From Histomonas meleagridis (taxonomy: Eukaryota; Parabasalia; Tritrichomonadida; Dientamoebidae), in assembly GCA_020186115.1 (NCBI GenBank), contig WSYJ01000186.1, positions 1-64,000 on the forward strand: DNA of 64,000 nucleotides. The letters run 5' to 3'. The translations under genes and the position numbers were made by a program. The first letter of the stretch is position 1; every line of letters starts with the position of its first letter. Below are positions 733 through 61,406 of this stretch, piece after piece. The notes under the pieces were generated by a model. That model made no database searches. It was not told the DNA's origin and saw nothing but the letters and a program-made list of their open reading frames with translations.

Positions 733-2076
733 TCAAATCCATTGGTCATCTTCGCCAAGAACCAACGTTTTGATTGAGTCATCTGCAGCTTCATTTTTCC
801 CACCGCCACATAATGATGTTCGATGTGAACTTTTGGTAAATGATTTTGATACTGATTTTTTGTTGTTATGTCGAACTACAAATAGTATTAAACCAACTGC
901 AATCAAAACAAATGCAATCGCTCCACATATAATGCCAACAAGTGCATTAGTGGTGAGTTCATTGACTTGTTGTTGTTCACTGTGTTTAAGCATTGTGAAG
1001 AAATCGGAATAAAAACTGATAACTGTGGAGTATTTGATGGCTTTGTAGTCATAATAAACAAATTCAGTGTTGACATATGTAAGTGTTGTCTCGTAATTAG
1101 ATAAATAAAATGTGTTCGATACGTATGAATTCTGTGTGATCGTCTCAGTGATCGATACTGTGCAAGTTAATATCATAGAATGAGATATAGTTACATCAGA
1201 ATCATATGTGAAAAACGTATTAGATCGTGTAAATACATTCGACTTAGTGAATGAATTACTTTGTGTAAATGAATTTGATTTAGTTAATGTATTACTTTGT
1301 GAATATGAATTTGATTTAGTGAATGTATTACTTAGTGTAAATGAATTCGATTTAGTGAATGTATTACTTTGTGTGAATGTGTTAGATTGTGAAAATGTAT
1401 TACTTTGACTAAATGTATTTGATTGTGAAAATGTATTACTTTGTGTTAATGTATTTGATTTTGTAAAAGTTTGTGTTAATAATACCTTAGAAACAGTGTA
1501 TCCACCAAAAGAAGTACCTTCAAATTCTGTTGTTGCATATACTGTAACATCATTGCTAGCTCCTTCGAATGCATCCTTATCAATCTGAATTTCTGATTTT
1601 CCATAAAAATAAATGCTCTCTAACCCTTTACAATCATGAAAAGCTTGTTCTCCAATATATTTTACATTACTCCCAATAGTAACTGTCTTCAATCCATAAC
1701 ACCTTTCAAAGGCATCTTTAATAATTGTTGTGACTGAATCTGGTATAATAATTTCTTCCAATTTTGCACAATCTTCAAACGCATCATCTCCAATTATTTC
1801 TAGGTCCTTTCCTAGAGTCACATTTTCTAAATTTTTACATCCACTAAATCCTCGTTCTCCAATTTTGGTTATACGAGGCCCAACCAATGCTGTTTGGAGG
1901 TTTTCGTTGTTTAGAAAGGCATCTTTTGGAATTACACTGAAACTTTCAGTTCCGTAAATTATTACGGATATAATATCCTCATCCGCGTTTTGGCATTCAC
2001 CATCTTGTGTTATTACTAATGTACTGTTTTCGACATAACCTTGATAAGAGATTGCGAAAAATAAGGAGACAAACAT
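733..2076 (-). CDS. BspA-like LRR surface protein with S/T-rich stalk and TM anchor
   Basis: 447 residues from an ATG at 2076. A short hydrophobic signal sequence (residues 1-10) is followed by BspA-type (LRR_5) repeats at about 45-170, with the typical 'IGDDAFEDCAKLEEIIIP' pattern. Residues 201-290 form a stalk of about 14 hexapeptides of the type SNTFTQ. A Ser/Thr/Tyr-rich stretch follows, then one membrane segment (379-401) and a 46-residue cytoplasmic tail rich in Lys/Ser. In trichomonads such proteins are cell-surface molecules implicated in binding to host cells or matrix; that role is family knowledge, not seen here. The second LRR gene at 7432-9402 has the same order of parts. The decayed LRR copy sits just beyond its 3' end. 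Confidence in the family is high; the ligand is unknown. Confidence 0.88.
   Translation of the reverse strand: MFVSLFFAISYQGYVENSTLVITQDGECQNADEDIISVIIYGTESFSVIPKDAFLNNENLQTALVGPRITKIGERGFSGCKNLENVTLGKDLEIIGDDAFEDCAKLEEIIIPDSVTTIIKDAFERCYGLKTVTIGSNVKYIGEQAFHDCKGLESIYFYGKSEIQIDKDAFEGASNDVTVYATTEFEGTSFGGYTVSKVLLTQTFTKSNTLTQSNTFSQSNTFSQSNTFSQSNTFTQSNTFTKSNSFTLSNTFTKSNSYSQSNTLTKSNSFTQSNSFTKSNVFTRSNTFFTYDSDVTISHSMILTCTVSITETITQNSYVSNTFYLSNYETTLTYVNTEFVYYDYKAIKYSTVISFYSDFFTMLKHSEQQQVNELTTNALVGIICGAIAFVLIAVGLILFVVRHNNKKSVSKSFTKSSHRTSLCGGGKNEAADDSIKTLVLGEDDQWI
1208..1480 (-). repeat. 18-bp tandem repeat encoding SNTF(T/S)Q stalk hexapeptides
   Basis: Within the LRR gene, an 18-bp unit (plus strand like gtgaatgtattactttgt) recurs about 14 times. 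It encodes the Ser/Thr-rich hexapeptide stalk. Units differ mainly by single substitutions, so copy number may vary between strains. The other LRR gene has about five similar hexapeptides at roughly 8806-8900. Confidence 0.85.
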
Positions 2077-4345: not shown

Positions 4346-5559
4346 CGAATATTTGTCCGCTTTTTGACAGCTACTTCTCTATCGTTCTGATTTGACGATA
4401 GTTATTTCAAAGGTGGAGTAGTCATTTTTTCAGTGGTAAAACCTCCTTATAAATTGAAAATTTCATCGGCATTATTCCCAAAAAAACTGGTTTTGAAGGT
4501 GAAATTATTCTATGAAATTCATAAACAACTATCTAATATTAATGAAGATTAATTTGGACAGTTTTTTGTTTCACATTCATTTATAAGTGTTACATTTCTT
4601 TTTTTTTAATTCCTTTTTGTTTAAGAAGTAATTTGGTGATTTGTTTGTCACAGGTTCTATGTGATATTAAAATTGCTGAAATTATTAAATTCATTTATAA
4701 TTCTATATATCACTCTGAAATTTTAAATTATTAAAATAAATATCAGATAAAACATAGAAATATTTTTTGTCTTAACATCAATTCCTTCTTGTTCAAACAA
4801 GTTCTATGGGGTGCTGGCCACATTAGTTTATTTATTGGGAAAGATGACATAGAATTGGGTTCCTACAAATTTTAAAAAGATAGCAGTACATTTTTTATCT
4901 TTGGTTTATTAATGAGAAATATAGGGGTAAATGGTGTTTTTACACTGTTTCATTATGGATAGTAAATCGAGAACTCATCCGTTACAGCTTAATACATAAC
5001 AAATTATGTTAATTATTGTGATAATTTTACCAATGACATGCGTACGACAATTGGAAAGATGAGAAATTAAAACCATAAACCACTTTTCAACTTTTATTTT
5101 AGGATTTTTATTTGAACTCTTCGAATTATTAATCCAAAGTTCAATAAGAGATAAAGAGTAGTTCCGACTCAACATTTTTCAAAAGATTTCTTTATGATAT
5201 TAATATAGCGATATGATGTATCGCTATATTTATTCTAGGTATTAGGAATTTTTTAAATTCTTCTGATAGATTTCAAGATATAATAATTTATTTTGAGGAA
5301 CCTTTTTCCCGTTAAAAAAGATTTATTGAAACACTAAGTCTCTTTTTTTCCTTCAATAATCCAATCACTTATGAAATATCATGCAAAACATTTCTTATGG
5401 CTGTTTGATTTCTCATAAAAATAAAAAAACACATTTAAATATTTAATGGAAATGTAAGAAGAAAACGAACAAGTGCTAACTCAGGCATCATGGCACTTTT
5501 TTGAAAAGAATGGAGCACCTTTAATCAGCGGCGGTTTTGGTCTTCCTTTTTATCGGGAG
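4346..5559. other. Intergenic, no convincing gene
   Basis: About 1.2 kb of AT-rich DNA. A 66-codon minus-strand frame at 4975-5175 has no recognisable composition and is probably chance. The stretch holds a strong hairpin at 5202-5230 and the 5' flank of the NAC beta gene. No RNA gene is recognised. Confidence 0.5.
5202..5230. repeat. Perfect inverted repeat, 12-bp arms, 5-nt loop
   Basis: The arms aatatagcgata and tatcgctatatt are exact reverse complements around tgatg. The element stands alone in intergenic DNA about 330 bp before the NAC beta coding region. It could be a transcript hairpin or a protein-binding dyad. No family is recognised. Confidence 0.7.
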
Positions 5560-6932: not shown

Positions 6933-7431
6933 TTTTTTGTGAAGTGAGAATACGTTTAGTAATCGATATCATTAGCAACTTACCAATTTTTGCATAAACC
7001 TTATAACTAAAGCTATTTAGCTCTAGTATACTCACAAGTTCATGATTGTTTACTCACAATTTCCTAGTTTTGCTTTTGCAAAATGACTTTTCTATTCTGA
7101 TTTCAAATAGTCAAAAATGCAAACCTTCTCTCCTTGTTGTGTGAGGGTTTTGTCTTTGAGTTATTTGTTTATACTTTGGAAATGCAGCACAATCACTGAG
7201 ATTTTTATCTACAATGGAAACACCAAAATGTCACTTTTACAATAAAAGTGATGTGGGCTGCATGTTTTGAATATGTTCTCAATTAATGCGATCGTTTTCT
7301 TTACAATTCACGACAATAAGTATTCAATTTGCTACCGTCTTCTTCAATCCTTCAAAACCGAATTGAAAAATGCCGTTGTTATTGAGCGGTTGAAATACTC
7401 AATTTCTGTTTAAATAAATTCATTGGTTTTT
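6933..7431. other. Divergent intergenic region
   Basis: About 500 bp between the minus-strand membrane-protein gene and the plus-strand LRR gene. Further CACTTTTA and CAATTC boxes occur, but I see no coding or RNA feature. Confidence 0.45.
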
Positions 7432-9402
7432 ATGGTCAAGATCTCTACATTATACAAACTAAATCTATTTCATAGTTTGCCTATTTCAAGTGCTTTAAAG
7501 TGCCTCGTTACTGTATCCTACGTTTCTAAAATAACAATTTTAAATAAAAATTGTCAGAATTTATCAAAATATTTCCTGAATGCCAACTCAACAAATGTGA
7601 TGTGCATACTCCCCTGTATTCTCATTATTCTTTTTGTCCTTAATATCATTAACTTATACAAAAGAATAATCAATTTTTTCTTTCCAAAAAAATTCATATT
7701 TAAATCAATTCTTCTTGCTTTTTCCCTCTTTTTTGCATTTTCATATCAAGAATTTAATAATGGAACTCTTATTATTTCTAATTCTGAAGATTTTACAGAA
7801 GAATACAAAACAGAAACTATAAATTTAATAGTTAATCAAGTAACTTCAATTCCATCTAATGCTTTCTGTGGTTGGAATATCTTAAAATATGTTGAAATAA
7901 ATGGATCAGTAACAACCATAGGAATTGCTGCATTTTCTGGTTGTATGAAATTAGAAACATTAATACTCAAAGAAGGAGTTCAGATAATAAATTCGGATGC
8001 TTTTCATTCATGCACAAGATTATATAATGTTTCCATACCAAATTCTTTAACATATATTGGTGGCTATTCATTTTATCAAGATTATAAATTGCAAACATTT
8101 AATTTCGGAGAAAATTTACAAACTATTGGAAGTTATGCATTTTGTCGATGTAATTTGACAAATGTGACAATACATAGTTCTGTTACTTCAATTGGGATTA
8201 ATCCTTTTGTTCATTGTGTAAATCTTTTATATGTTAATGTATCTAAAGATAACAAATATTACTCAAATTTAGCTAATGATGGTATTCTTTATAGTAAATC
8301 TATTACTTCTATCATTTGTTATCCATTAAAATCTGAAAACAGAACATTCGAAATTCCAAGTACAGTTACATTCATTACAAGTTATGCATTTAATACATGT
8401 AGTAATTTAGAATCAATTATTATTGGAGAACAAGTTACAAGTATTGGTGATAGAGTATTTCAAAGATGTTATTCATTAAAAAGTATAATAATACCTAACA
8501 CACCAACTTCGCTTCGAGAATTTTCATTTTCTGATTGTTATAATTTAACAAAAATTACAATCGGAAAAAATATCAAAAGTATTGGGTATGGCGCATTCCA
8601 AGATTGTAATAATCTTTATTGTATTTTCTTTCTTGGAGATACAGAGCCAACATTCTCAAGTTCTGTCTTTAGTGGTGTTCCAGCAACAGTTGTTATGACA
8701 CTTCCAACGTATCAAAGCTCAAAATTCTATAATCGTAATGTAACTAATGGAACTATAATTGATGAATGTTTCCCAGAAACATTAACATTTACACCATCTC
8801 GTATCTTCTCTAAATCTAATGTGTTTACTCAATCAAATACTTTCTCCAAATCAAATTCTTTTACAAAGTCAAATAATTTTACAAAATCGAATACTTTTAC
8901 TGAGACTTTTCGTAGTGATTTAACTTTTCTACATTCTTTTGTGTTGACTTATTACCAATCAATTACAAATTCATTAATAATAAAAAACTCGACTTTATTT
9001 GCTTCTTTTACTCTTTCTATCATTGATTCCACACTTACTTATATATATTCAGAATTCATTTATTATAATTATACTGTTGTTATATATTCAACATATTATA
9101 GTTTTTATTCTGATTTTTATAATATTATTACTACTCAAACTGAAACACCTCAAAAAGATCATAAGACAATTATAATTATAACTGTGATTTGCGTTGTGAT
9201 TGTTATCATAATTATAACTTTACTCGTTATTTTGTTAATCCGGATCAGGAATAAAAATATTTTGGAAGAAAATTCTAATGATGTCGAGCAAAATGAAACA
9301 AGTTATAATAACAGTTTCATTGGAGATAAATATATGAATGATATTGATGAAGATCCTTTTGCAAATGATTTTAAAGAAAATGATTTTGTTAGTAATATGT
9401 AG
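7432..9402 (+). CDS. BspA-like LRR surface protein, second copy
   Basis: 656 residues from the first in-frame ATG at 7432, but the N-terminus is doubtful. The signal-peptide-like segment (SLFFAFSYQ), which matches the start of the 733-2076 protein (SLFFAISYQ), lies about 90 residues in with no ATG beside it. The next ATG is at 7600. The ectodomain has about a dozen BspA-type LRRs ('VTSIGDRVFQRCYSLKSIIIP') and an IFFLGDTEPTF cap. A stalk of about five SNTF/SNSF hexapeptides follows, then a long isoleucine-rich membrane helix near residues 578-605 and an acidic tail. It belongs to the same surface family as the left-hand gene, facing the opposite way. Either the start codon decayed or a 5' intron hides the first exon. 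Confidence 0.82.
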   Translation: MVKISTLYKLNLFHSLPISSALKCLVTVSYVSKITILNKNCQNLSKYFLNANSTNVMCILPCILIILFVLNIINLYKRIINFFFPKKFIFKSILLAFSLFFAFSYQEFNNGTLIISNSEDFTEEYKTETINLIVNQVTSIPSNAFCGWNILKYVEINGSVTTIGIAAFSGCMKLETLILKEGVQIINSDAFHSCTRLYNVSIPNSLTYIGGYSFYQDYKLQTFNFGENLQTIGSYAFCRCNLTNVTIHSSVTSIGINPFVHCVNLLYVNVSKDNKYYSNLANDGILYSKSITSIICYPLKSENRTFEIPSTVTFITSYAFNTCSNLESIIIGEQVTSIGDRVFQRCYSLKSIIIPNTPTSLREFSFSDCYNLTKITIGKNIKSIGYGAFQDCNNLYCIFFLGDTEPTFSSSVFSGVPATVVMTLPTYQSSKFYNRNVTNGTIIDECFPETLTFTPSRIFSKSNVFTQSNTFSKSNSFTKSNNFTKSNTFTETFRSDLTFLHSFVLTYYQSITNSLIIKNSTLFASFTLSIIDSTLTYIYSEFIYYNYTVVIYSTYYSFYSDFYNIITTQTETPQKDHKTIIIITVICVVIVIIIITLLVILLIRIRNKNILEENSNDVEQNETSYNNSFIGDKYMNDIDEDPFANDFKENDFVSNM

Positions 9403-18617: not shown

Positions 18618-19510
18618 ACTCACTACGAAACAAATTGAAATCATTTCATTTCTCACTCCGAAACAATTTGAAATAACATCATTTCTCACTCCGAAACAAT
18701 TTGAAATAACATCATTTCTCACTCAGAAACAATTTGTAATGATATTATTTCTCACTCCTAAACAAACAAACAATTTGATATGAATTCATTTCTCACTCAG
18801 AAACAATTTGTAATGATATTATTTCTCACTCCTAAACAAACAAACAATTTGATATGAATTCATTTCTCACTCAGAAACAATTTGTAATGATATCATTTCT
18901 CACTCCTAAGCAAACAAACAATTTGATATGAATTCATTTCTCACTCAGAAACAATTTGTAATGATATTATTTCTCACTCCTAAGCAAACAAACAATTTGA
19001 TATGAATTCATTTCTCACTCAGAAACACTTTGTAATGATATCATTTCTCGCTCCTAAGCAAACAAACAATTTGATATGAATTCATTTCTCGCTCAGAAAC
19101 ACTTTGTAATGATATCATTTCTCGCTCCTAAGCAAACAAACAATTTGATATGAATTCATTTCTCGCTCAGAAACACTTTGTAATGATATCATTTCTCGCT
19201 CCTAAGCAAACAAACAATTTGATATAAATTCATTTCTCACTCAGAAACAATTTGTAATGATATTATTTCTCACTCCTAAGCAAACAAACAATTTGATATG
19301 AATTCATTTCTCACTCAGAAACACTTTGTAATGATATCATTTCTCGCTCCTAAGCAAACAAACAATTTGATATGAATTCATTTCTCACTCAGAAACACTT
19401 TGTAATGATATCATTTCTCGCTCCTAAGCAAACAAACAATTTGATATGAATTCATTTCTCGCTCAGAAACACTTTGTAATGATATCACTTCTCGCTCCTA
19501 AGCAAACAAA
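18618..19510. repeat. Minisatellite: 32-bp units grading into a 74-bp higher-order unit
   Basis: The left part has tandem ~32-bp units around CATTTCTCACTCCGAAACAA. From about 18708 the array becomes a 74-bp compound unit. Its EcoRI-like GAATTC word falls at 18782, 18856, 18930, 19004, 19078, 19152, (mutated at 19226), 19300, 19374 and 19448, exactly 74 apart. Each compound unit contains two diverged halves of the short unit, one ending in the extra CAAACAAACAATTTG. The block ends about 55 bp beyond the stop codon of the SPX transporter gene. Confidence 0.92.
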
Positions 19511-19567
19511 TAATTTCATTTTCGCTCTCACTCAATGTCATATTTCATAGTTATTATTTATTTAGCT

Positions 19568-21709
19568 TTATAAACCATAAGCGTAACCAATTCCATATTG
19601 TATTGAAATAATACAAACGAACGATATCACCGTTGCTATTGATCCTGACTTTAGTATGTCGGCTGTCTTCAGGTACTCCTTTCCGTTTCTATCCTGCAGC
19701 GAGACGCAGCACAAGTTCGGGAACGACGACACTGGCAGTATCTGCGATGCAGTTGTTGCCATGTTTGCCTGCATTGCGAATAGTCTAAAGTGTGGTTCGT
19801 TCATTGAGAAGTCGCATATCAACGGCAACAAAATCGTTGCTGAGACAGTGTGCGATATGAAGATGTTAATGATCAAAACGAAGACGTCGATGATCAACAA
19901 CGACACCCACAGCGATGTGTTACCCAACAGATCCCTCAGCAAGTTCGAGACGATTCGCAGCAGTTGCGATTGCTCCACAACAGTACCCAACGCATTACCG
20001 CCCATGACTAAGAACAATATGTTCCACGGTAACTCGCTCAGACGCGACGGAGGTAATACGCCTGTGCCGTAGAACAAGAGAAATGGTAAGAAGCCAACAA
20101 TGCCATTGTCACCGAATACGTCCTCGCCGCCGAATGGTAATACGATCCAAAGAACTATCGACGCTAATGATACTATCGACACAAAGATTTGTCGCCACCC
20201 GAAGTCCGTCTTGACATCGGAAAACTTCGGCACTTCTTTGACATCAGACTTGTACACGAAGATGATAATCGCCCAATAGATAATGCAGCCAACAACTGCG
20301 GGTGGAAATGCGGTGGCAAGATATTCCACAAAGCCAAAGCTCTTCGGTTGGTAACTTGGGTCTTGTGATTGTAGTTGACTGTTAACGTTTTCGACTGCTT
20401 GAATTGCAATAGCGTTTTGTGGTGATGATAATGGTGTTGTTAAGCCTCCAAAGTTTCCACCAGCTGCAATGCCTAACAGAACTAACTTCGCAAAGGTCGA
20501 TCCTTGTGGTAATTGTTGTAATGTTGGTGTTACTAATGTAACAACAATCATTGTACTTGCAACATTATTAATCCACATCGCAAAAAAGGCATTCAAGACA
20601 ATAACAGAAAATACAAATAATGGAACTGATGACGTAGAGCGCTTGAGAATCATGGCAGCTATACGTTTATCCATTTCGGTTTCTTTGAATGCAGCAGCTA
20701 TCGTAAAACCGCCAATAATCAAATAAACGGTCGACGACATTGTGGAATTTTGAATGAGTTTGGCAACGTTAGGTATCGTTTGGCCAGGGACTAAACGGGC
20801 GACTGTCGTAATGAACGGAATTGAGAGCGACGTAAGCCAAAGTGGCACCGCGGTTGTGACCCAGAGAACTGCGCAAAATATTAACATGGCTAAACAACGA
20901 CGTGCTTCTGGCGTGGAATTCATGATCGGCAAAAACATAAATACCATCATTAAAACAAAACCAACAATGATCGGACTCCATTTAATCGGTGCAGCTGACA
21001 TTTGAAATTCATTTTGTCGAAACGTATACGCACTCCATTTGTTAACAACTGTGGACTGTTTCCATAATAATGAGTTCTCAATGCTTTTATGAAGTTCAAG
21101 AATAATTTCTTGTCGTGGACGTTTGTCGCCTTTGGGATTGATTTCACGCTTAACTTTGATATATAACTCTTCAAGTTGACTCATTTGTGCATCAATTGTG
21201 GGTTGATGATCAAAGGCATCTTCACGAATGGTGTCGAATTCTTCAACGGCTCGTTCATCTTGCATCTTCTTCCTGAATTTTTTGGCAATACAAAATGTTC
21301 CTGTCTTGTTAATTGAAAGAAAAGAACGAATTTCATAAAGATTTAATACTGCAACAAAAACTTGCTTATGAAATGAAGTAGCTGTCTCTTCGTCTTTGCT
21401 TTCTTCTTCTTGGTCTTCTATTGTATGTTCAATTTCGGTTGAAAGTTTTTCAATTCTTTCAGTTGCTTCTGCCACAAGTGAACTAAAGAACTGAAGGCAA
21501 TCATTTATATTATTAATGAGAGCTTCTTTGAAGTTTGCATAGCATTCATCTTTAAGTTTTTGAATGTCTGATTCTGATTGATTTTGCTCATGAGCTTCAT
21601 TAAGACGTGTAGCAAATGATTTGATCATTTTTTTGAACTGTTTGTATTGAATATAATGAGGAAACCAGGCTTTCACAGCTACAAAGCGGAGCTGTTTCCC
21701 GAACTTCAT
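19568..21709 (-). CDS. SPX-domain SLC13-type phosphate transporter
   Basis: 713 residues. The N-terminal SPX domain (about 1-190) begins MKFGKQLRFVAVKAWFPHYI and has the basic inositol-pyrophosphate surface (YKQFKKMIK; INKTGTFCIAKKFRKKM). About 11 membrane helices follow from residue 240, with the divalent-anion symporter signature: AMWINNVASTMIVVTLVTP in the first half, and GGNFGGLTTPLSSPQNAIA, near the substrate site. This architecture matches yeast Pho87/90/91, which move phosphate and are gated by SPX. The C-terminal half is clearly less AT-rich than the SPX half. A minisatellite lies directly 3' of it. Confidence 0.92.
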   Translation of the reverse strand: MKFGKQLRFVAVKAWFPHYIQYKQFKKMIKSFATRLNEAHEQNQSESDIQKLKDECYANFKEALINNINDCLQFFSSLVAEATERIEKLSTEIEHTIEDQEEESKDEETATSFHKQVFVAVLNLYEIRSFLSINKTGTFCIAKKFRKKMQDERAVEEFDTIREDAFDHQPTIDAQMSQLEELYIKVKREINPKGDKRPRQEIILELHKSIENSLLWKQSTVVNKWSAYTFRQNEFQMSAAPIKWSPIIVGFVLMMVFMFLPIMNSTPEARRCLAMLIFCAVLWVTTAVPLWLTSLSIPFITTVARLVPGQTIPNVAKLIQNSTMSSTVYLIIGGFTIAAAFKETEMDKRIAAMILKRSTSSVPLFVFSVIVLNAFFAMWINNVASTMIVVTLVTPTLQQLPQGSTFAKLVLLGIAAGGNFGGLTTPLSSPQNAIAIQAVENVNSQLQSQDPSYQPKSFGFVEYLATAFPPAVVGCIIYWAIIIFVYKSDVKEVPKFSDVKTDFGWRQIFVSIVSLASIVLWIVLPFGGEDVFGDNGIVGFLPFLLFYGTGVLPPSRLSELPWNILFLVMGGNALGTVVEQSQLLRIVSNLLRDLLGNTSLWVSLLIIDVFVLIINIFISHTVSATILLPLICDFSMNEPHFRLFAMQANMATTASQILPVSSFPNLCCVSLQDRNGKEYLKTADILKSGSIATVISFVCIISIQYGIGYAYGL

Positions 21710-22653
21710 CGCGATTGACTGATTGTTTTTTTCGAACTCAAATTTTTGAGAAGTGCTCGTTATAAAATCAACCGGCTACAGCGGTTTTGAATAGAAAAAG
21801 TTCGATGATTTTTTTGGCGATAAAAAAAAGAACTGTATCAAAGTCTTTCCTAAGTTTTACTATTGATGTATAAAAACAAAATCAAATTGTATTTCTAAAA
21901 TATCCCTTATTTATTCATGAAATATATTAAAGATGTCATAATATTCATATTTTATGTTTTGCTTTTTTTCTATGCATTATTGGAAATAAACAATTCAATT
22001 TATGCGATAACGGTCCAGTAGAACTGTTATGGTTGTCATTTGTGATAATTTTAATCGTTTTGTCATAAACGTAAATTTACACTTAACCGTATTTAAACGG
22101 TGGTGAAACTGCAACAACAGTTTATAATATTTTTTCACATGTATAGTAGTAAAATTAGAAACCTAATGAAATGATCTTTAAATATTATGCAGGAAATCAC
22201 TAGGCTTGAAATCATTTGCGAAATGATCAAATGATGGTGGGAAAAAAATGAAAATAAATATAATTAAAAAACTTTTACTTTAATAAGAGAAGGTAAATTG
22301 CAACTTCAAGATGTACATTAATAAACAAAAAGAATAATGATTTTTTATTATAACTAGTGTTTTTATTTTGGGTAGAAATTGGACAAAAAAGACAGAGTGT
22401 AAACAGTAGAAATCGAATAAGTGTCACTTTTATAATTGGCTCTCTATCGTTCAAATGCCAATATGCGAATGAAGTCTTCATAAAAACAATCACATTAAAA
22501 AAAGTTGACAACACCCATATTTGACATTACACGAGGGTCATATGGAAATAACAATTTTAATTCTTGAACAAAAAAAATGGTTTTAATATCCTTAATTAAG
22601 GTTTGTATTATATTTTATTAAATTTAATAAAAATTTTTAAATATTTAATATAT
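21710..22653. other. Intergenic region with AACGGT boxes
   Basis: About 940 bp between the transporter start and the H2B stop. No gene is supported; a 79-codon minus-strand frame at 22275-22514 lacks any protein-like feature. It contains the AACGGT cluster listed separately. Confidence 0.5.
22004..22104. promoter_or_regulatory. Cluster of AACGGT (Myb-type) boxes
   Basis: AACGGTC occurs near 22008, and an inverted pair ACCGT-ATTTAA-ACGGT lies at about 22086-22102. AACGGT/YAACNG is the core recognised by Myb domains, which trichomonads use widely. The cluster is about 300-390 bp upstream of the SPX transporter ATG. Confidence 0.4.
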
Positions 22654-46902: not shown

Positions 46903-47135
46903 GCAGAAAAAGCCTTTATTATTTTCGCACATGGAAAGGTCCTACTTGATGATAAAGACTGAGTAGGCATTACACTCCATATCGTAGCGGTTTTTCAAAA
47001 TCCACAAATCCAAAACGATCAATTTGAACATAAAAACTTAAACCGTCGTTATAAAATCCAATATTCAATCTGTCGGTTAGAACCAAGTTTTGTGTAAAAA
47101 CCGTTAAAGATTTTATCGTTCGACCATTGTTCAGA

Positions 47136-48353
47136 ATGGATAAAACATCAAAAATAAATAAAATTAAATACCTTAAATATCTCCAAATAATTAATAATGC
47201 AATTTGGAACTTAAATGAAGAAAATATTGATAAATCAGTCGAAATGACTAAAAAATTATTTGATACTAATTTTCCTTATTCTGTTATGTTGATTTCAAGT
47301 CAATTGATATATTCATCTTTTATTTCTCAGAGGAAAGATTTAAATATATATTTCCAATTTTTAAAAACATTTTCTACTAATGACTCAGATAACATAATTG
47401 ATGTATTTGTAAAATATCTTATTCATTTAAAGTCTCAAGAATCTTATTACATTTTAGAAAAGATGCATCAAAGAAACCTTATAGATTCCGATATTTTAAG
47501 AAAGGTAAAATCATTTTATTTCGCTCATTATAAAACATATGATGAAATTATTTCATTAGAAAATTTTGTAAGTTCTGCACAATATTTCAAGTCATTCATG
47601 GAGAATATAGAGGAACTTAAAAAAGATGATTGGAAATTACATAAACAATTAATTGAAGAAGGTTGTAATCAAGATGAAATCATGAAAATAATTCGAAATG
47701 ATGAAATAGAAAAACTTCAAGAACTCACAGCACAAACAAATTTTGATTTTAATCAAAAAATTAAGCCTTCACTTTATGAACGATATTCATTTATTAATAA
47801 AGAAGATGTTACATTAATTGATTATGCTGCATTTTTTGGGTCAATTAATTGTTTTAAATTTTTATTGTTAAATGGTTCTGATATATATAACTCTGGTAAA
47901 TACGCAGTTGCAAATGGAAACTTAGAAATGATTCATTTATGTCATCAAAATAATTCATCTTTTAATGGATCATATGAAGCAGCAATTGAATTCCATCAAA
48001 ATGAAATATTTAAATATCTTTATGAAAATAAAATAAGTAAATTTGAAAACTTTAATGAGTTAAGAAAGAAATGTATACAATATAATAATTATAAAATTCT
48101 TTCTTTTTTCATAAAAGGAATAAGAAACCTAAATTTAATCTATAAAGCAGCTGCAGAAAATGGTAATGTTTTTATTTATAATTATTTTTATGAAGAAAAT
48201 TTCCTATTTCCAGAAGATATTTTACTATTTTGTGTAAAATCAGGTAACATTGAATTTTTTAAATTCCTTCTCCTAAATAAAGATGCTAATATTAATGCTA
48301 AAGATGATTATTTGTCTTTTAGTCATATGTTTCATTTTTCATTATGGAATTAA
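47136..48353 (+). CDS. DUF3447-type ankyrin protein, N-terminal contiguous part
   Basis: 405 codons from the ATG at 47136 to a TAA at 48351. The first ~150 residues are the helical domain seen at the start of many trichomonad ankyrin proteins. Degenerate ankyrin units follow from about residue 225 without spacers (VTLIDYAAFFGSINCFKFLL; YKAAAENGNVFIYNYF). The last is a full unit (ILLFCVKSGNIEFFKFLL...NINAKD). After it a 51-nt spacer carries the single in-frame TAA, and the next ankyrin unit at 48369 is in the same frame. So this stop is probably not the end of the gene but part of the first spacer of the array. Ankyrin repeats bind proteins; no partner is suggested. Confidence 0.7.
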   Translation: MDKTSKINKIKYLKYLQIINNAIWNLNEENIDKSVEMTKKLFDTNFPYSVMLISSQLIYSSFISQRKDLNIYFQFLKTFSTNDSDNIIDVFVKYLIHLKSQESYYILEKMHQRNLIDSDILRKVKSFYFAHYKTYDEIISLENFVSSAQYFKSFMENIEELKKDDWKLHKQLIEEGCNQDEIMKIIRNDEIEKLQELTAQTNFDFNQKIKPSLYERYSFINKEDVTLIDYAAFFGSINCFKFLLLNGSDIYNSGKYAVANGNLEMIHLCHQNNSSFNGSYEAAIEFHQNEIFKYLYENKISKFENFNELRKKCIQYNNYKILSFFIKGIRNLNLIYKAAAENGNVFIYNYFYEENFLFPEDILLFCVKSGNIEFFKFLLLNKDANINAKDDYLSFSHMFHFSLWN

Positions 48354-48368
48354 ATTTATTTATTTAAT

Positions 48369-51302
48369 ACTCCTCTTATGATTGCATGCATTGAAGGTTA
48401 TTTTGATATTGTTGAGTTACTTCTTGCACAAAAAGGAATTTTACGAAATGATAAAAACAGATTTTCTTCTTATAATATGATATTTGATACATATATTTGG
48501 ATTTTATTCATTATATTTATGACTCCTCTTTTATTAGCAATACAAAATGATAATAAAAAAATTGTTAAATTGCTTCTTGCAGAAAAAAGGATTAACATTA
48601 GTATGAAAAATATTTCTTTATTTAATAAAATTTTTACAAAAATATTTTGATATTTGATTTTAATCATTAATATTTATTTGATTTTTCCTGTACACCATTG
48701 ATATGTGCAGCTCAAACTAACAATATCAAATTAACTAAGTTACTTCTAAAGCAAAAAAATATTGATATAAATTCCCAAGATTTTTGTTTCATTTATGTAT
48801 TGTTTATTTTAAAGACTTAATAATTAAAAATCATATTTGGAATTTATTTAAAAAAATTCTTACTGCACTTATGCAAGCATCATGGAGAGGTTACATTGAA
48901 ATAGTAAAAATTCTTCTTAAGCAAAAGCTTGATATAAACAAAATTGATATTTATATACTTTATATCGAAATAATTTTAATAATTTTATGTTTTAAAATTA
49001 TATTTTATTTTTATTAAAATTATTTGAAACAGCTCTTATAATATCATTGAAAAATGGACAAACAGAAATTGCTAAATTACTTATTAAGCATGGAATTGAT
49101 TTTAATAAAGCAGGTATTTATATTATATATTTTTTATTTATACTAATAATTTGATGTATTATACCGAAATATGAAATCTCATAAAATTTTTTGATACTCC
49201 ACTTATGTTAGCAATAAAAAATGGTTATACAGAAATATATAAATTACTTCTTGAACAAAAAGGAATTGATATTGATGCTAAAGATTATTATATGTTTTAT
49301 TTCAGATTTATTTCAATAATTTGATATTTCTAAATAATATTTGGAAATTATTTAAATTATTTAATACAGCACTTATTTTGGCAATAAAAAAAGGTGATGA
49401 TGAAGTGTCTAAATTACTTCTTGAAAAAATCGACACCGGCATCAATGCTAAAGACATTTTTTTATTTTGTTCAAAGCTTATTATAATCATTTTATATTTC
49501 AAAATAATAATTGGAAATTATTAAAATCATTTGACACAGCACTCATATTAGCAACAGGAAAAGGTAATATTGAAATAGTTAAATTGATTCTTAAAAACTT
49601 TATAACTAATGTCAATATCAAAAATATATTTTTGCTTGATTTAATATTAACTTTAATGATTTTTTGTTTCTAAATAATATTTGGAAATCTTTCAAATTAT
49701 TTAATACAGCACTCATAATTTCCGTTGGAAAATGTTATATCGAAATATTTAAATTACTTCTTGAACAAGAAGGAATTGCTATTAATGAGAAAAACATAAT
49801 TTTGTTTAATTTGGGGTTGAATTTATTCAATTGATATTTAAATATAACTTTTGGTAATTATTACAATTATTTAAAACAGCGCTTATACTGTCAGTTGAAA
49901 AAGGTTATATTGATATGTGCATTTTGCTTATTCAAAAAGAAAATATTGATCTTAATATTAAAGATATTTGTTTGCTTAATTTAATTTTTCTTTTATTAAT
50001 TTCATATATCAAAATATTATTTGGTGTTTATTCATAAAATTTCAAACGGCACTTATGTATGCAACTGAAAGAGGTTATATTGAAATAGTCAAAGAAATTA
50101 TCTGGAAAAAAGGAATTGAAATCAATGAGCAAAATATTTCTTTGTTTTATACAATTTTTATTTCATTAATATTATATTTCATTATAATATTTAGAATTTT
50201 TTTTAATTTTTTTAAAACAGCACTTATTTTAGCATGTGAAAGAGGACATTATAAAATTGTTAAATTACTTCTTAATTATGAAGGAATTGATGTTAATATC
50301 AAAAATATATTATCATTTTATTTAATTTTTGTTTTAATAGAATATTATTTCATATTGATATTTGGAAATTGTTCAAAATAATTCAAACAGCAATTATGTT
50401 AGCAACTGAAAATGGATTTACTGAAATAGTCAAATTACTTATTAAAAAAGAAGAAATTGATATTAATGTTAAAGATGTTTATTTGTTTTGTTTATTGTTT
50501 AATATAGTGATCTAATGTATTAAAATAATGTTTGGAATTTAATTAAAATATTTCAAACAGTACTTCTATTGGCAACGCAAAAAGGTTTTACTGAAATTAC
50601 TAATGTTCTTATTGAGAAAGGAACTGATATCAATGTAAAGAATATTTGTATATTTTATTCAAAGTTTATTTTACTTATAAAAAGTTTTTAAGTAAAATTT
50701 GGAATTTATTTAATATAATTTTAACACCACTCGTTTTTGCAATTAGAAAAGGTTATACTGAAATTGCACTATTACTTCTTAAACAAGAAGGAATTGATAT
50801 TAGTGTTAAAGAAGTTTATTTGTTTTACCTACATTTTGTTTCAATAATATCGAATTTCAAAAAATTGTTTGGAAATTATTTAAAATACTTAATACAATGT
50901 TAATGATTGCATCTAATAGAGATCAAATTGAAATTGTTAAATTACTACTTGAAAAAAATGTAATTGATATAAATGCCAAAAATAATAAATTGTTTTATTT
51001 AAAATTTCCTGAAATAATTTGATGTTTTGTAATGTTATTAGGAAATTATTTAAAATATTTGAAACAGCTCTTATGCTAGCAGCCAAAAATTATAATACAG
51101 ATATACTTAAATTACTTCTTGAACAAAAAGGAATTGATATAAATGCTAAAAATGATTATTTAATGTATTTAAAATTTATTTCAATGATTCGATGTTACTT
51201 ATTAAAATTTGGAAATTAAACAAATTATTTCAAACAGCACTTATGTTAGCATCTCAAAAAGGTTACACGGAAATCATTAATATACTCAGCGGAAACAAAT
51301 AA
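48369..51302 (+). repeat. Array of 18 intact ankyrin units separated by constant ~68-nt spacers
   Basis: Units begin with a T-(A/P)-L codon run at 48369, 48522, 48692, 48862, 49029, 49196, 49366, 49536, 49706, 49876, 50046, 50217, 50387, 50557, 50724, 50894, 51064 and 51234. Steps are 153, 170, 170, 167, 167, 170 (five times), 171, 170, 170, 167, 170, 170, 170. Each unit reads as a full ankyrin repeat, e.g. TALMLAAKNYNTDILKLLLE then QKGIDINAKN, with no stop or frameshift. The 167 steps are exactly those whose ankyrin has one residue fewer. Spacers are AT-rich and alike (TTTGTTTTATTT...TTTGATATTT...TATTTGGAAATTATTT). Most carry a stop and all 68-nt ones change frame. The last unit ends with its own TAA at 51300-51302. 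GT-AG borders are not conserved. Confidence 0.88.
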
Positions 51303-51575
51303 TTGATATGCAACAACATGGTTTTGTCATGATTAAATATAAATTCATCAAAAATTGTAATTAATGAAAAAGTATTTAAATCTATTTAATTAACTTATGT
51401 GTGTTTCATGAAGTTAATAAAAATACCTTTTCTAAATATGATTTTACTATTATTCTTCAATTTTTTTTCTAAATATTCATATAAGTATCTATTTCCATTA
51501 TATTAACAAATAAATGTAAGACAAAAAAATTATTTTGCTTACTTGTTATTGAGGAAGATATACAATGGATTTCTT

Positions 51576-60458: not shown

Positions 60459-61406
60459 TTGAATGATTTGAGTTTTGTCAATTTTATCACGGATTTTGTA
60501 GTGTTTGAAAGAGATGACATTAAAACACTTGAAGAATTTATCATAGAAAATGATAATGTAAATGCAAAACTAGATTGCAATTCATGTGATTGGCCAATTT
60601 TAAAAAATAACCCACCATTGATTTCAATTGCTGCTTATTTTGCTGCAAAAAAATGTTTCAAATATCTGCTTAATAATGACGCTGATTTATTACTTGGTGA
60701 TGATAAAGGAGTTTTGCCTTTTCACTTTGCGGCAGCAGGTGGTTCAATTGAAATTTGTGATTATTTTGATAGTGCTGGAATAGATTTTAATATAACAGAC
60801 TCAAATGGAAAAAATTCATTACATTATGCTTGTCAATATGGAAATATTAAAATTGTTGAAAGATTTTGGAATCGTAATTTTGATTTAAACAAGTCTGATA
60901 ATAAAGGATTCAAACCAATTCATTATGCATCATATCCTCAATGTACCTCAGTTATTAAATTTTTAATTCGAAACAATTGTAATATGAATGAATCTTCAGA
61001 ATCAAATATAACACCCCTTTTAATAGCATTGAAAAACTCTATTCCAGTTTTAAAATATCTTGTTTCTATTGGTGCTGATACTCATATTCTTGTTGATGGT
61101 GATCGAACACCTCTTTTATACGCATCATTTTATGGTAACTCCGAAGTTATTAAAATTCTTCTCAACTCACCTCACTGCATTGCATCAATAGATCAAAGAG
61201 ACCGTAGAGGCTGGACACCGCTTCATTACTCCTGTTCGAGAGGAGATTTCGAAATTTGCCAAATTTTGACAGAAAAAGGCGCCAATTTAAACGTTCTCTC
61301 ATCTCATGGAATTTCTCCAGCTCAGTGCGCATTTAACAGAGGACACACAATGATTTACGATTACCTGGTAAGCCAAGGTGGAGATGTACAAATTAAATTA
61401 ATTTGA
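60459..61406 (+). CDS. Ankyrin-repeat protein, start codon missing or displaced
   Basis: The frame opens right after a TAA and encodes about 315 residues, but the first codon is TTG (NDLSFVNFITDF...), with no ATG for over 170 codons. An out-of-frame ATG at 60463 suggests a small indel or lost start. The body holds eight ankyrin units without spacers, such as GVLPFHFAAAGGSIEICDYF, NSLHYACQYGNIKIVERFW and GWTPLHYSCSRGDFEICQIL. It ends cleanly at QGGDVQIKLI. It may be a young pseudogene, or a first exon may lie upstream. Confidence 0.65.
   Translation: MNDLSFVNFITDFVVFERDDIKTLEEFIIENDNVNAKLDCNSCDWPILKNNPPLISIAAYFAAKKCFKYLLNNDADLLLGDDKGVLPFHFAAAGGSIEICDYFDSAGIDFNITDSNGKNSLHYACQYGNIKIVERFWNRNFDLNKSDNKGFKPIHYASYPQCTSVIKFLIRNNCNMNESSESNITPLLIALKNSIPVLKYLVSIGADTHILVDGDRTPLLYASFYGNSEVIKILLNSPHCIASIDQRDRRGWTPLHYSCSRGDFEICQILTEKGANLNVLSSHGISPAQCAFNRGHTMIYDYLVSQGGDVQIKLI

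Follow-up and report, generated by a model that had tools for sequence, protein, structure and literature searches.

The first 64,000 nucleotides of contig WSYJ01000186.1 of the poultry parasite Histomonas meleagridis, referred to here as the window (G000:C120:1-64000), contain at positions 47136 to 51302 an array of ankyrin-repeat units separated by short AT-rich spacers. Each ankyrin repeat of this array is probably encoded by its own short exon, and the spacers are probably removed from the message before translation. The region would thus be one gene of a very large H. meleagridis family of ankyrin-repeat genes, in which the spacer after each repeat is an intervening sequence, usually of 77 nt, that extends from a D codon to the codon preceding the next T. 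Its removal would place the N-terminal domain, all repeats and the terminal unit (C-cap) in one continuous reading frame. The removal is inferred to occur at the RNA level and precisely near D/...ATTT/xT (slashes marking the cuts), most simply leaving D-I-F-x-T in a repeat of 33 residues, and some factor would have to read the AT-rich TTTGG...ATTATTT end of the spacer. Such a layout with one repeat per exon would permit the shuffling of units and their amplification by unequal exchange, along with the diversification of a few variable residues.

The array was re-measured with an ankyrin-unit profile, with the linker defined as the stretch between the D codon and the next T codon; the linker minus 12 nt, with a unit of 34 residues assumed, gives the spacer length as counted in the preliminary description of this region. 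The array starts with an N-terminal exon, continues with 17 further ankyrin units and closes with a terminal one, the TAA of which is at 51300-51302, and the N-terminal frame runs from the ATG at 47136 without a stop until 48353. The 18 linkers measure 63 nt (two), 80 nt (15) and 81 nt (one), equivalent to the spacers of 51, 68 and 69 nt that had been reported in the same numbers. The reported coincidence of 167-bp steps with shorter ankyrin units was also reproduced, as the three steps of this length fall at the three units with 29 codons, and so was the freedom of the units from stops, which holds for 18 of the 18 units before the terminal one when the N-terminal repeat is counted. Pfam searches of the N-terminal exon yielded Ank_2 and Ank_4 above the cut-off and PF11929 (DUF3447) with 25.5 bits against a cut-off of 26.9; relatives have PF11929. 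Among the four downstream frames scanned, three contain ankyrin matches above the cut-off, e.g. PF00023 at 50055-50381 (1.3e-12), and the frame at 49321-49524 scored 20.7 bits, slightly below the cut-off of 21.1.

The sequences of the units show them to be coding and under site-specific selection at the protein level, and their translation is strongly suggested. In the window and 20 further loci, 183 of 193 units are open and a multiple of three in length, a count that comprises near end-to-end profile matches only and favours intact units. Neutral evolution was simulated with a consensus unit that accumulated mutations as fast as the spacer belonging to it, with 90-nt units and 80-nt linkers only, so that frameshifts were not part of the test. 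The observed number of stop-free units (150 of 152) exceeded both the simulated mean of 96.3 and the maximum of 113 in 300 runs, and the 12 units of this type in the window are all intact, compared with a mean of 5.0 and a maximum of 10 in 2,000 runs. Moreover, units from the fifth onward differ by 0.27, 0.16 and 0.27 at codon positions 1, 2 and 3, respectively. The ratio of non-synonymous to synonymous divergence (dN/dS) was calculated for 17 loci with at least four such units, on 548 pairs from which stop-containing units had been excluded, by simple counts of the Nei-Gojobori type, the absolute values of which are rough in an AT-rich genome. The pooled dS was 0.315 and the dN across all codons 0.243, yielding a ratio of 0.77 that is below 1 in 14 of the 17 loci. 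In a split-sample test, the four most non-synonymous codons were picked in one half of the loci and examined in the other. Both halves picked codons 5, 8, 9 and 28, which show a dN/dS above 1 in all 17 loci (1.09 in the window), and the remaining codons a value below 1 in 16 of 17. Measured as amino-acid entropy, variability peaks at codons 5 and 8 (3.4 bits), which presumably belong to the binding surface of an ankyrin fold, and it is smallest at N27 (0.5 bits). The stop avoidance and the dN/dS ratio with its site-specific pattern are in line with the initial view that the coding parts were kept by selection.

The spacers are less uniform in length and less free in sequence than had been assumed. 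A spacer of 68 nt is the usual case, 212 of the 267 distinct linkers having 80 nt, but not a constant one, as the others range from 44 to 100 nt. The notion that the spacers are free to vary was not upheld, since their pooled divergence is 0.74 of the ankyrin dS and is lower than the dS in 14 of the 17 loci. The ratio exceeds 1 in L020, L022 and L036 and is as low as 0.20 in L021 and 0.27 in L024, where the spacers differ by 5-6% and the ankyrin parts by about 17-22%. The 55 linkers with a length other than 80 nt fall into all three classes modulo 3, with 33 in class 0, 14 in class 2 and eight in class 1; linkers of 63 nt make up 18 of the 33 members of class 0 and thereby part of the excess. 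Of the 27 arrays that have five or more linkers, 22 contain one or more that would block a ribosome even if a single frame slip were allowed in addition to plain reading. In view of these uncrossable linkers and of lengths in all three frames, the spacers are most simply explained as removed, and the earlier statement that they hold stops or shift the frame is true of most of them.

The limits of the coding parts were assessed by counting stops per codon in 126 distinct 80-nt linkers against the expectation from column composition. The codon preceding T contains no stop among 126 linkers (12.2 expected), includes TGG 12 times and TGA never, and specifies chiefly N, K, W, D, E, Y, F, R, Q, C or H. 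Seven stops (7.2 expected) fall in the third codon before T (positions 71-73), and ten (9.5 expected) in the second after D (positions 3-5). On this loose expectation, coding seems to halt within about five bases after D and to restart at most about five bases before the x codon. When the edges were joined in all ways, each single cut that gives a unit of 34 residues left stops in at least seven of the 126 linkers. Some joins giving 33, 32 or 31 residues are free of stops in all of them, and D-I-F-x-T with 33 residues is the stop-free join nearest to an ordinary ankyrin repeat. A GGN codon just before the x codon, providing the ordinary G-x-T turn, occurs in five of the 267 linkers (1.1 expected). 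In seven complete-looking arrays, the first two bases of the linker are AT in 54 of 71 cases and the last two before the x codon are TT in 61 of 71. In the fetched loci the spacers fall at one codon boundary.

Ordinary-looking introns of this genome have the structure GTATGT...ACTAACNCATAG, with seven examples. These derive from a pattern search with 17 hits, seven of which contain GTATGT, an inverted repeat (recognized by eye) and ACTAAC(A/C/T)CATAG; the reversed control pattern gave more hits (165), and the evidence lies in the shared extended motif and not in the count. The motif ACTAACNCATAG was found 56 times, compared with 21 times in the control, partly in spaced clusters. The sequence ACTAACACATAG recurs about every 0.8 kb in clusters on contigs C9, C53, C55 and C84 of G000, and some motif hits may therefore come from a tandem repeat instead of introns. 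A likely ordinary Histomonas intron of 68 nt is located at positions 1501-1568 (-) of L049 (G000:C40:3008411-3008478); it comprises GTATGT, a possible hairpin and ACTAACCCATAG and interrupts an open frame, with 272 codons on the near side and 106 on the far side in matching phase. Among the 267 ankyrin linkers, CTAAC is present in none and GTATGT in two, no fixed position has GT in more than 57%, and no fixed position before the T codon has AG in more than 6%. The usual GT-AG and branch-point signals of the genome are thus absent from the spacers, in agreement with the preliminary description, which had found neither GT-AG borders nor a trichomonad splice motif. A spliceosome is likely present in this organism, since an open frame of 2,333 residues matches Prp8 and a candidate U6 scores slightly below the gathering threshold; a U1 search gave no match in the genome or in the controls and is hence uninformative. 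A profile of the spacer, applied to 284 kb of the genome rich in ankyrin loci, had 318 of its 335 hits beside ankyrin units, and the 17 hits away from them all have E values of at least 0.0014.

A number of specific removal signals were considered and rejected. The trichomonad 3' motif ACTAACACACAG, a form of which is given in PMC12316389, was detected three times, compared with two times in the control, and the ordinary-looking introns here use ACTAACNCATAG. An intron of the type GTTTT...ACAG, checked by hand, leaves the wrong frame, and ACAG is absent from units with T-P-L. Of the AT...AC and AT...AG pairs examined by hand, only G/AT...ACAG/ is in frame, at the cost of apparently coding codons. 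Two small introns of 51 and 17 nt around a micro-exon encoding I-F-G are attractive because the TTTGG of the spacer lies in the upstream frame, and were set aside since the GG is lost in several intact window units. For a removal defined by a hairpin, the consensus arms look complementary by eye; clear support from compensatory changes is missing and the fold energies are ordinary. By informal comparison, double changes in the candidate helices are close to the expected number or only about half compensatory, and a few helices exceed it, e.g. 24.0 versus 16.5 with about 60% compensatory.

The search for other loci, which had been proposed along with the first account of the array, covered 43,276,120 bases on 121 contigs and revealed many arrays, of which that in the window is one. 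The pattern of the 3' junction has 3,042 matches in the genome and one in the control (two or three mismatches), the pattern of the 5' junction 3,478 and none (up to three mismatches), and the spacer-end pattern TTTGGAAATTATTTAAATTATTT 4,383 and four (up to two mismatches). With thousands of matches against zero to four in the controls, the array pattern is not due to chance. In 25 fetched sequences, i.e. the window and 24 loci with 248 kb, the profile matched 279 units, of which the two junction patterns detect 109 and 137. On this basis, a rough extrapolation suggests some 7,100 to 7,800 ankyrin units in the genome, the figure being rough as the loci were picked by pattern hits. For the N-terminal exon, 103 of 2,368 candidates were scored, which gave 103 matches including itself and thus a minimum of 102 genomic relatives, and a frame of at least 326 residues enters the first detected unit in 15 of the 26 arrays with at least four units.

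The ends of 36 arrays with at least three units were tallied by eye. Fourteen of them end at the last profile hit with an open second helix, an in-frame stop 20-32 codons after T and no spacer, and in at least nine more a diverged terminal unit can be read past the last profile hit. As AT-rich DNA quite often has a stop shortly behind helix 2, these C-caps support gene ends and do not prove them. Following their last unit, the recently amplified arrays L026 and L027 run into one common unrelated sequence (AATGGGTAAATTGCACAACCGCAGACC...), and a mobile element has perhaps cut off their 3' ends.

The 17 best relatives show 37-56% identity and are mostly metagenome proteins; two public relatives from H. 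meleagridis are annotated as 'cask-interacting protein (caskin) 1,2'. The ends described here were taken from the proteins alone and may be set by gene prediction or contig ends. Six of the 17 (P0003, P0006, P0007, P0009, P0011 and P0015) end right after D-(I/V), P0010 ends after G-I, and several continue into a spacer-like tail, that of P0001 having the same length as the translated Histomonas spacer consensus and sharing 16 of 30 residues with it in an ungapped alignment. Judged by its protein end, P0020, a public Histomonas protein, appears to terminate in the first spacer. More distant relatives (P0025, P0027, P0032, P0037 and P0042) end shortly after D-x-N in a hydrophobic tail. The ends of the distant relatives hint that the interruption is older than Histomonas.

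The model of one repeat per exon has to be weighed against a number of findings that do not fit it readily. No invariant border exists among the 71 linkers, AT and TT being frequent and not fixed, 177 of the 267 linkers contain no GT with a later AG, Rfam gave no match up to E = 1 in positions 47000-51500 of the window, and six spacers fold no better than shuffled sequences (z from -1.7 to +1.8). The non-coding-frame codon at positions 37-39 is also free of stops (7.8 expected), and the column-wise expectation is therefore loose, as it ignores shared ancestry. All joined units but the five mentioned above would lack the usual hairpin glycine. Uninterrupted unit junctions occur once in P0004 and at one place in L014. 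The all-codon dN/dS is above 1 in L021, L027 and L036. Internal stops are present in 29 of the 103 N-terminal copies (74 have none), two of the 36 arrays (L023 and L040) end in a seemingly broken unit, and 11, including the near-identical L026 and L027, have no cap; part of the family has accordingly decayed. Finally, 17 of the 33 in-frame linkers are open (ten and two in the other two frames), and in linkers that are not a multiple of three the upstream and downstream open frames overlap in 168 of 234 cases, a number that was 90 and 54 for the two control frames and 50 for shuffled sequences. The overlap drops in diverged arrays (three of nine linkers in L015, three of ten in L018). Together with the open in-frame linkers, it may mean that spacers are translated to some extent, or it may go back to the ancestral spacer.

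These last figures speak for a message that keeps its spacers, in which ribosomes would translate in-frame spacers into long loops and pass the remaining ones by slipping or skipping. In known phage bypass the stop is located directly after the take-off codon, and several relatives likewise have a stop directly after D-(I/V). We consider such ribosomal passage very unlikely, as it needs up to 18 events per protein, the three length classes 0, 1 and 2 would require different slips, most arrays possess at least one linker beyond the reach of reading or one slip, and the frame overlap, weaker in diverged arrays, may only be inherited from a common ancestor. Quite unlikely is a translation product that comprises the N-terminal domain and one repeat and terminates at the first stop in a spacer, the remainder being a tandemly amplified satellite or 3' untranslated region. 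The apparent ends of P0020 and several metagenome relatives in the first spacer, the almost identical, recently amplified arrays L026 and L027 without a cap, the modest all-codon dN/dS and the frequency of stops after helix 2 in AT-rich DNA are what it would predict; the codon-position pattern from the fifth unit on, the stop avoidance, the site-specific selection and the C-caps are not, and the slow spacers of L021 and L024 are the opposite of a free spacer. A silent store of ankyrin cassettes that are copied into an expressed gene, one of the options raised at the outset, would account for the many diverse units and the homogenised arrays, and has become barely credible, because an N-terminal frame and an end of its own are present in many an array and a genome search with exact anchors gave no spacer-free junction of the ankyrin family, i.e. 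no joined acceptor, a result that an acceptor of different sequence would escape. A looser search with GGAAATACAGCACTTATG returned 12 places, of which ten were read and none is a spacer-free array; L014 has the one direct junction. A search with residues 372-441 of P0004 found ten proteins, and the three that were read resemble ordinary ankyrin proteins, probably bacterial. Another initial option, a non-canonical or self-removing insert in every repeat, corresponds to the removal of spacers from the message favoured here. In a variant of it, the ordinary spliceosome would excise the spacers at very weak AT-rich sites. The Prp8 match, the U6 candidate and the similar size of the L049 intron are compatible with this variant, which we rate as somewhat unlikely in the light of the missing GTATGT...ACTAACNCATAG signals and of the low fixation of GT and, above all, AG in the linkers.

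On the model of one repeat per exon with spacer removal, the spacers may, as a tentative proposal drawn from sequence comparison, represent a second class of nuclear introns with several thousand copies in Histomonas and probably in related parabasalids, which lacks GT-AG borders, a branch motif and an end-joining fold, is locked to the ankyrin boundary and depends on machinery not yet described. Animal genes with one repeat per exon, as for leucine-rich and ankyrin repeats, evolve by unequal exchange and contain GT-AG introns of variable length. They share with the Histomonas array the one repeat per exon and differ from it in these introns. The parabasalid ankyrin/DUF3447 proteins resemble the deduced product in the N-terminal domain, where DUF3447 is just under the cut-off, and in repeats of 33-34 residues, but here every repeat after the first is set apart by a spacer. 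Spliceosomal introns of Trichomonas, as presented in the accessible text of PMC12316389, are likewise short parabasalid introns and partly located in ankyrin-type genes; 63 active introns are recorded there for T. vaginalis, with no multiple introns per transcript. Unlike the spacers, they and the ordinary-looking introns of this genome are bordered by GT and AG, with branch site and 3' site fused into one motif.

The closest similarity is to the nonconventional introns of euglenids and diplonemids, which according to the accessible parts of PMC6221363 and PMC12621601 are short nuclear inserts in protein genes with variable non-canonical borders, no U1-type 5' site and an unknown removal machinery. 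The absence of conserved border dinucleotides, a trait of introns of the euglenozoan type, is also found in the ankyrin spacers. In PMC6221363 (2018), as far as accessible, such introns had not been observed outside euglenids and diplonemids, i.e. Euglenozoa, and are stated to form a stable structure that pairs their ends and to insert at new positions. The ankyrin spacers, in contrast, show no end-joining structure in the six that were folded, and in the fetched loci they lie at a single codon boundary within one repeat family, their sequence and usual length being largely conserved. No description of them was found in the partly accessible literature on Histomonas, Trichomonas/Tritrichomonas, parabasalid splicing and noncanonical introns, including the accessible parts of PMC8529796, PMC12316389, PMC6679479, PMC11978803, PMC10063853, PMC6221363 and PMC12621601. 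Introns are described as scarce in the Histomonas genome in the accessible part of PMC8529796 (573 in the virulent strain), and the term "ankyrin" was not found in its main text as far as accessible. If the proposal is correct and the extrapolation holds, the spacers would exceed the annotated number of introns in the Histomonas genome more than ten times, and a kind of intron known in 2018 only from Euglenozoa (PMC6221363, accessible part) would also exist in Histomonas. A large family of binding proteins could then swap and diversify single repeats as exons. The recognition and removal of a nuclear intron without standard borders would become testable, with thousands of natural variants available for comparison.

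Table 1. Proposed exons and spacers of the ankyrin array (positions in the window; exons 2 to 18 comprise the x codon and T to N/D)
Feature	Position	T codon	Strand	Basis
N-terminal exon, ankyrin/DUF3447-type domain, ends at K-D of its last ankyrin repeat	47136..48305		+	open frame; Pfam; at least 102 genome relatives
Spacer 1 (63-type linker), 60 nt between the D and x codons	48306..48365		+	linker measurement
Ankyrin exon 2	48366..48458	48369	+	profile, open unit
Spacer 2, 63-type linker, open in frame	48459..48518		+	linker measurement, frame check
Ankyrin exon 3	48519..48611	48522	+	profile, open unit
Spacer 3, 77 nt from D to x codon (68 nt with a 34-residue unit)	48612..48688		+	linker measurement
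Spacers without own row: gaps between exons, length as spacer 3 (77 nt)			+	linker measurement
Ankyrin exon 4	48689..48781	48692	+	profile, open unit
Ankyrin exon 5 (29 codons from T)	48859..48948	48862	+	profile
Ankyrin exon 6 (29 codons from T)	49026..49115	49029	+	profile, open unit
Ankyrin exon 7	49193..49285	49196	+	profile, open unit
Ankyrin exon 8	49363..49455	49366	+	profile, open unit
Ankyrin exon 9	49533..49625	49536	+	profile
Ankyrin exon 10	49703..49795	49706	+	profile, open unit
Ankyrin exon 11	49873..49965	49876	+	profile, open unit
Ankyrin exon 12	50043..50135	50046	+	profile, open unit
Spacer 12, 1 nt longer, 81-type linker, open in frame	50136..50213		+	linker measurement, frame check
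Ankyrin exon 13	50214..50306	50217	+	profile, open unit
Ankyrin exon 14	50384..50476	50387	+	profile, open unit
Ankyrin exon 15 (29 codons from T)	50554..50643	50557	+	profile, open unit
Ankyrin exon 16	50721..50813	50724	+	profile, open unit
Ankyrin exon 17	50891..50983	50894	+	profile, open unit
Ankyrin exon 18	51061..51153	51064	+	profile, open unit
Last spacer, 77 nt from D to x codon	51154..51230		+	linker measurement
Terminal ankyrin unit (C-cap), 51234-51302 from T codon, in-frame TAA, no spacer after it	51231..51302	51234	+	array-end tally

A second type of paralogue was observed in L020 at 1180-640 (-) and in L023 at 5850-5600 (-), the array of L023 being partly broken. Its spacers consist of 20-nt tandem units similar to ATGTTTTAATAATTTGGAAT in varying copy number, resulting in linkers of about 60, 80, 100 and 120 nt. 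Elsewhere in the window, weak matches to the ankyrin unit are located at 4608-4799 (-), 22525-22586 (+) and 61109-61162 (+) with E values from 0.0002 to 0.008, and are perhaps remnants of decayed arrays of the same family. The window additionally contains at 18694-19516 a 74-bp tandem repeat with 11.1 copies and 96% matches, which is located 3' of a gene similar to citrate/sulfate transporters with an SPX match (19571-21709, -).

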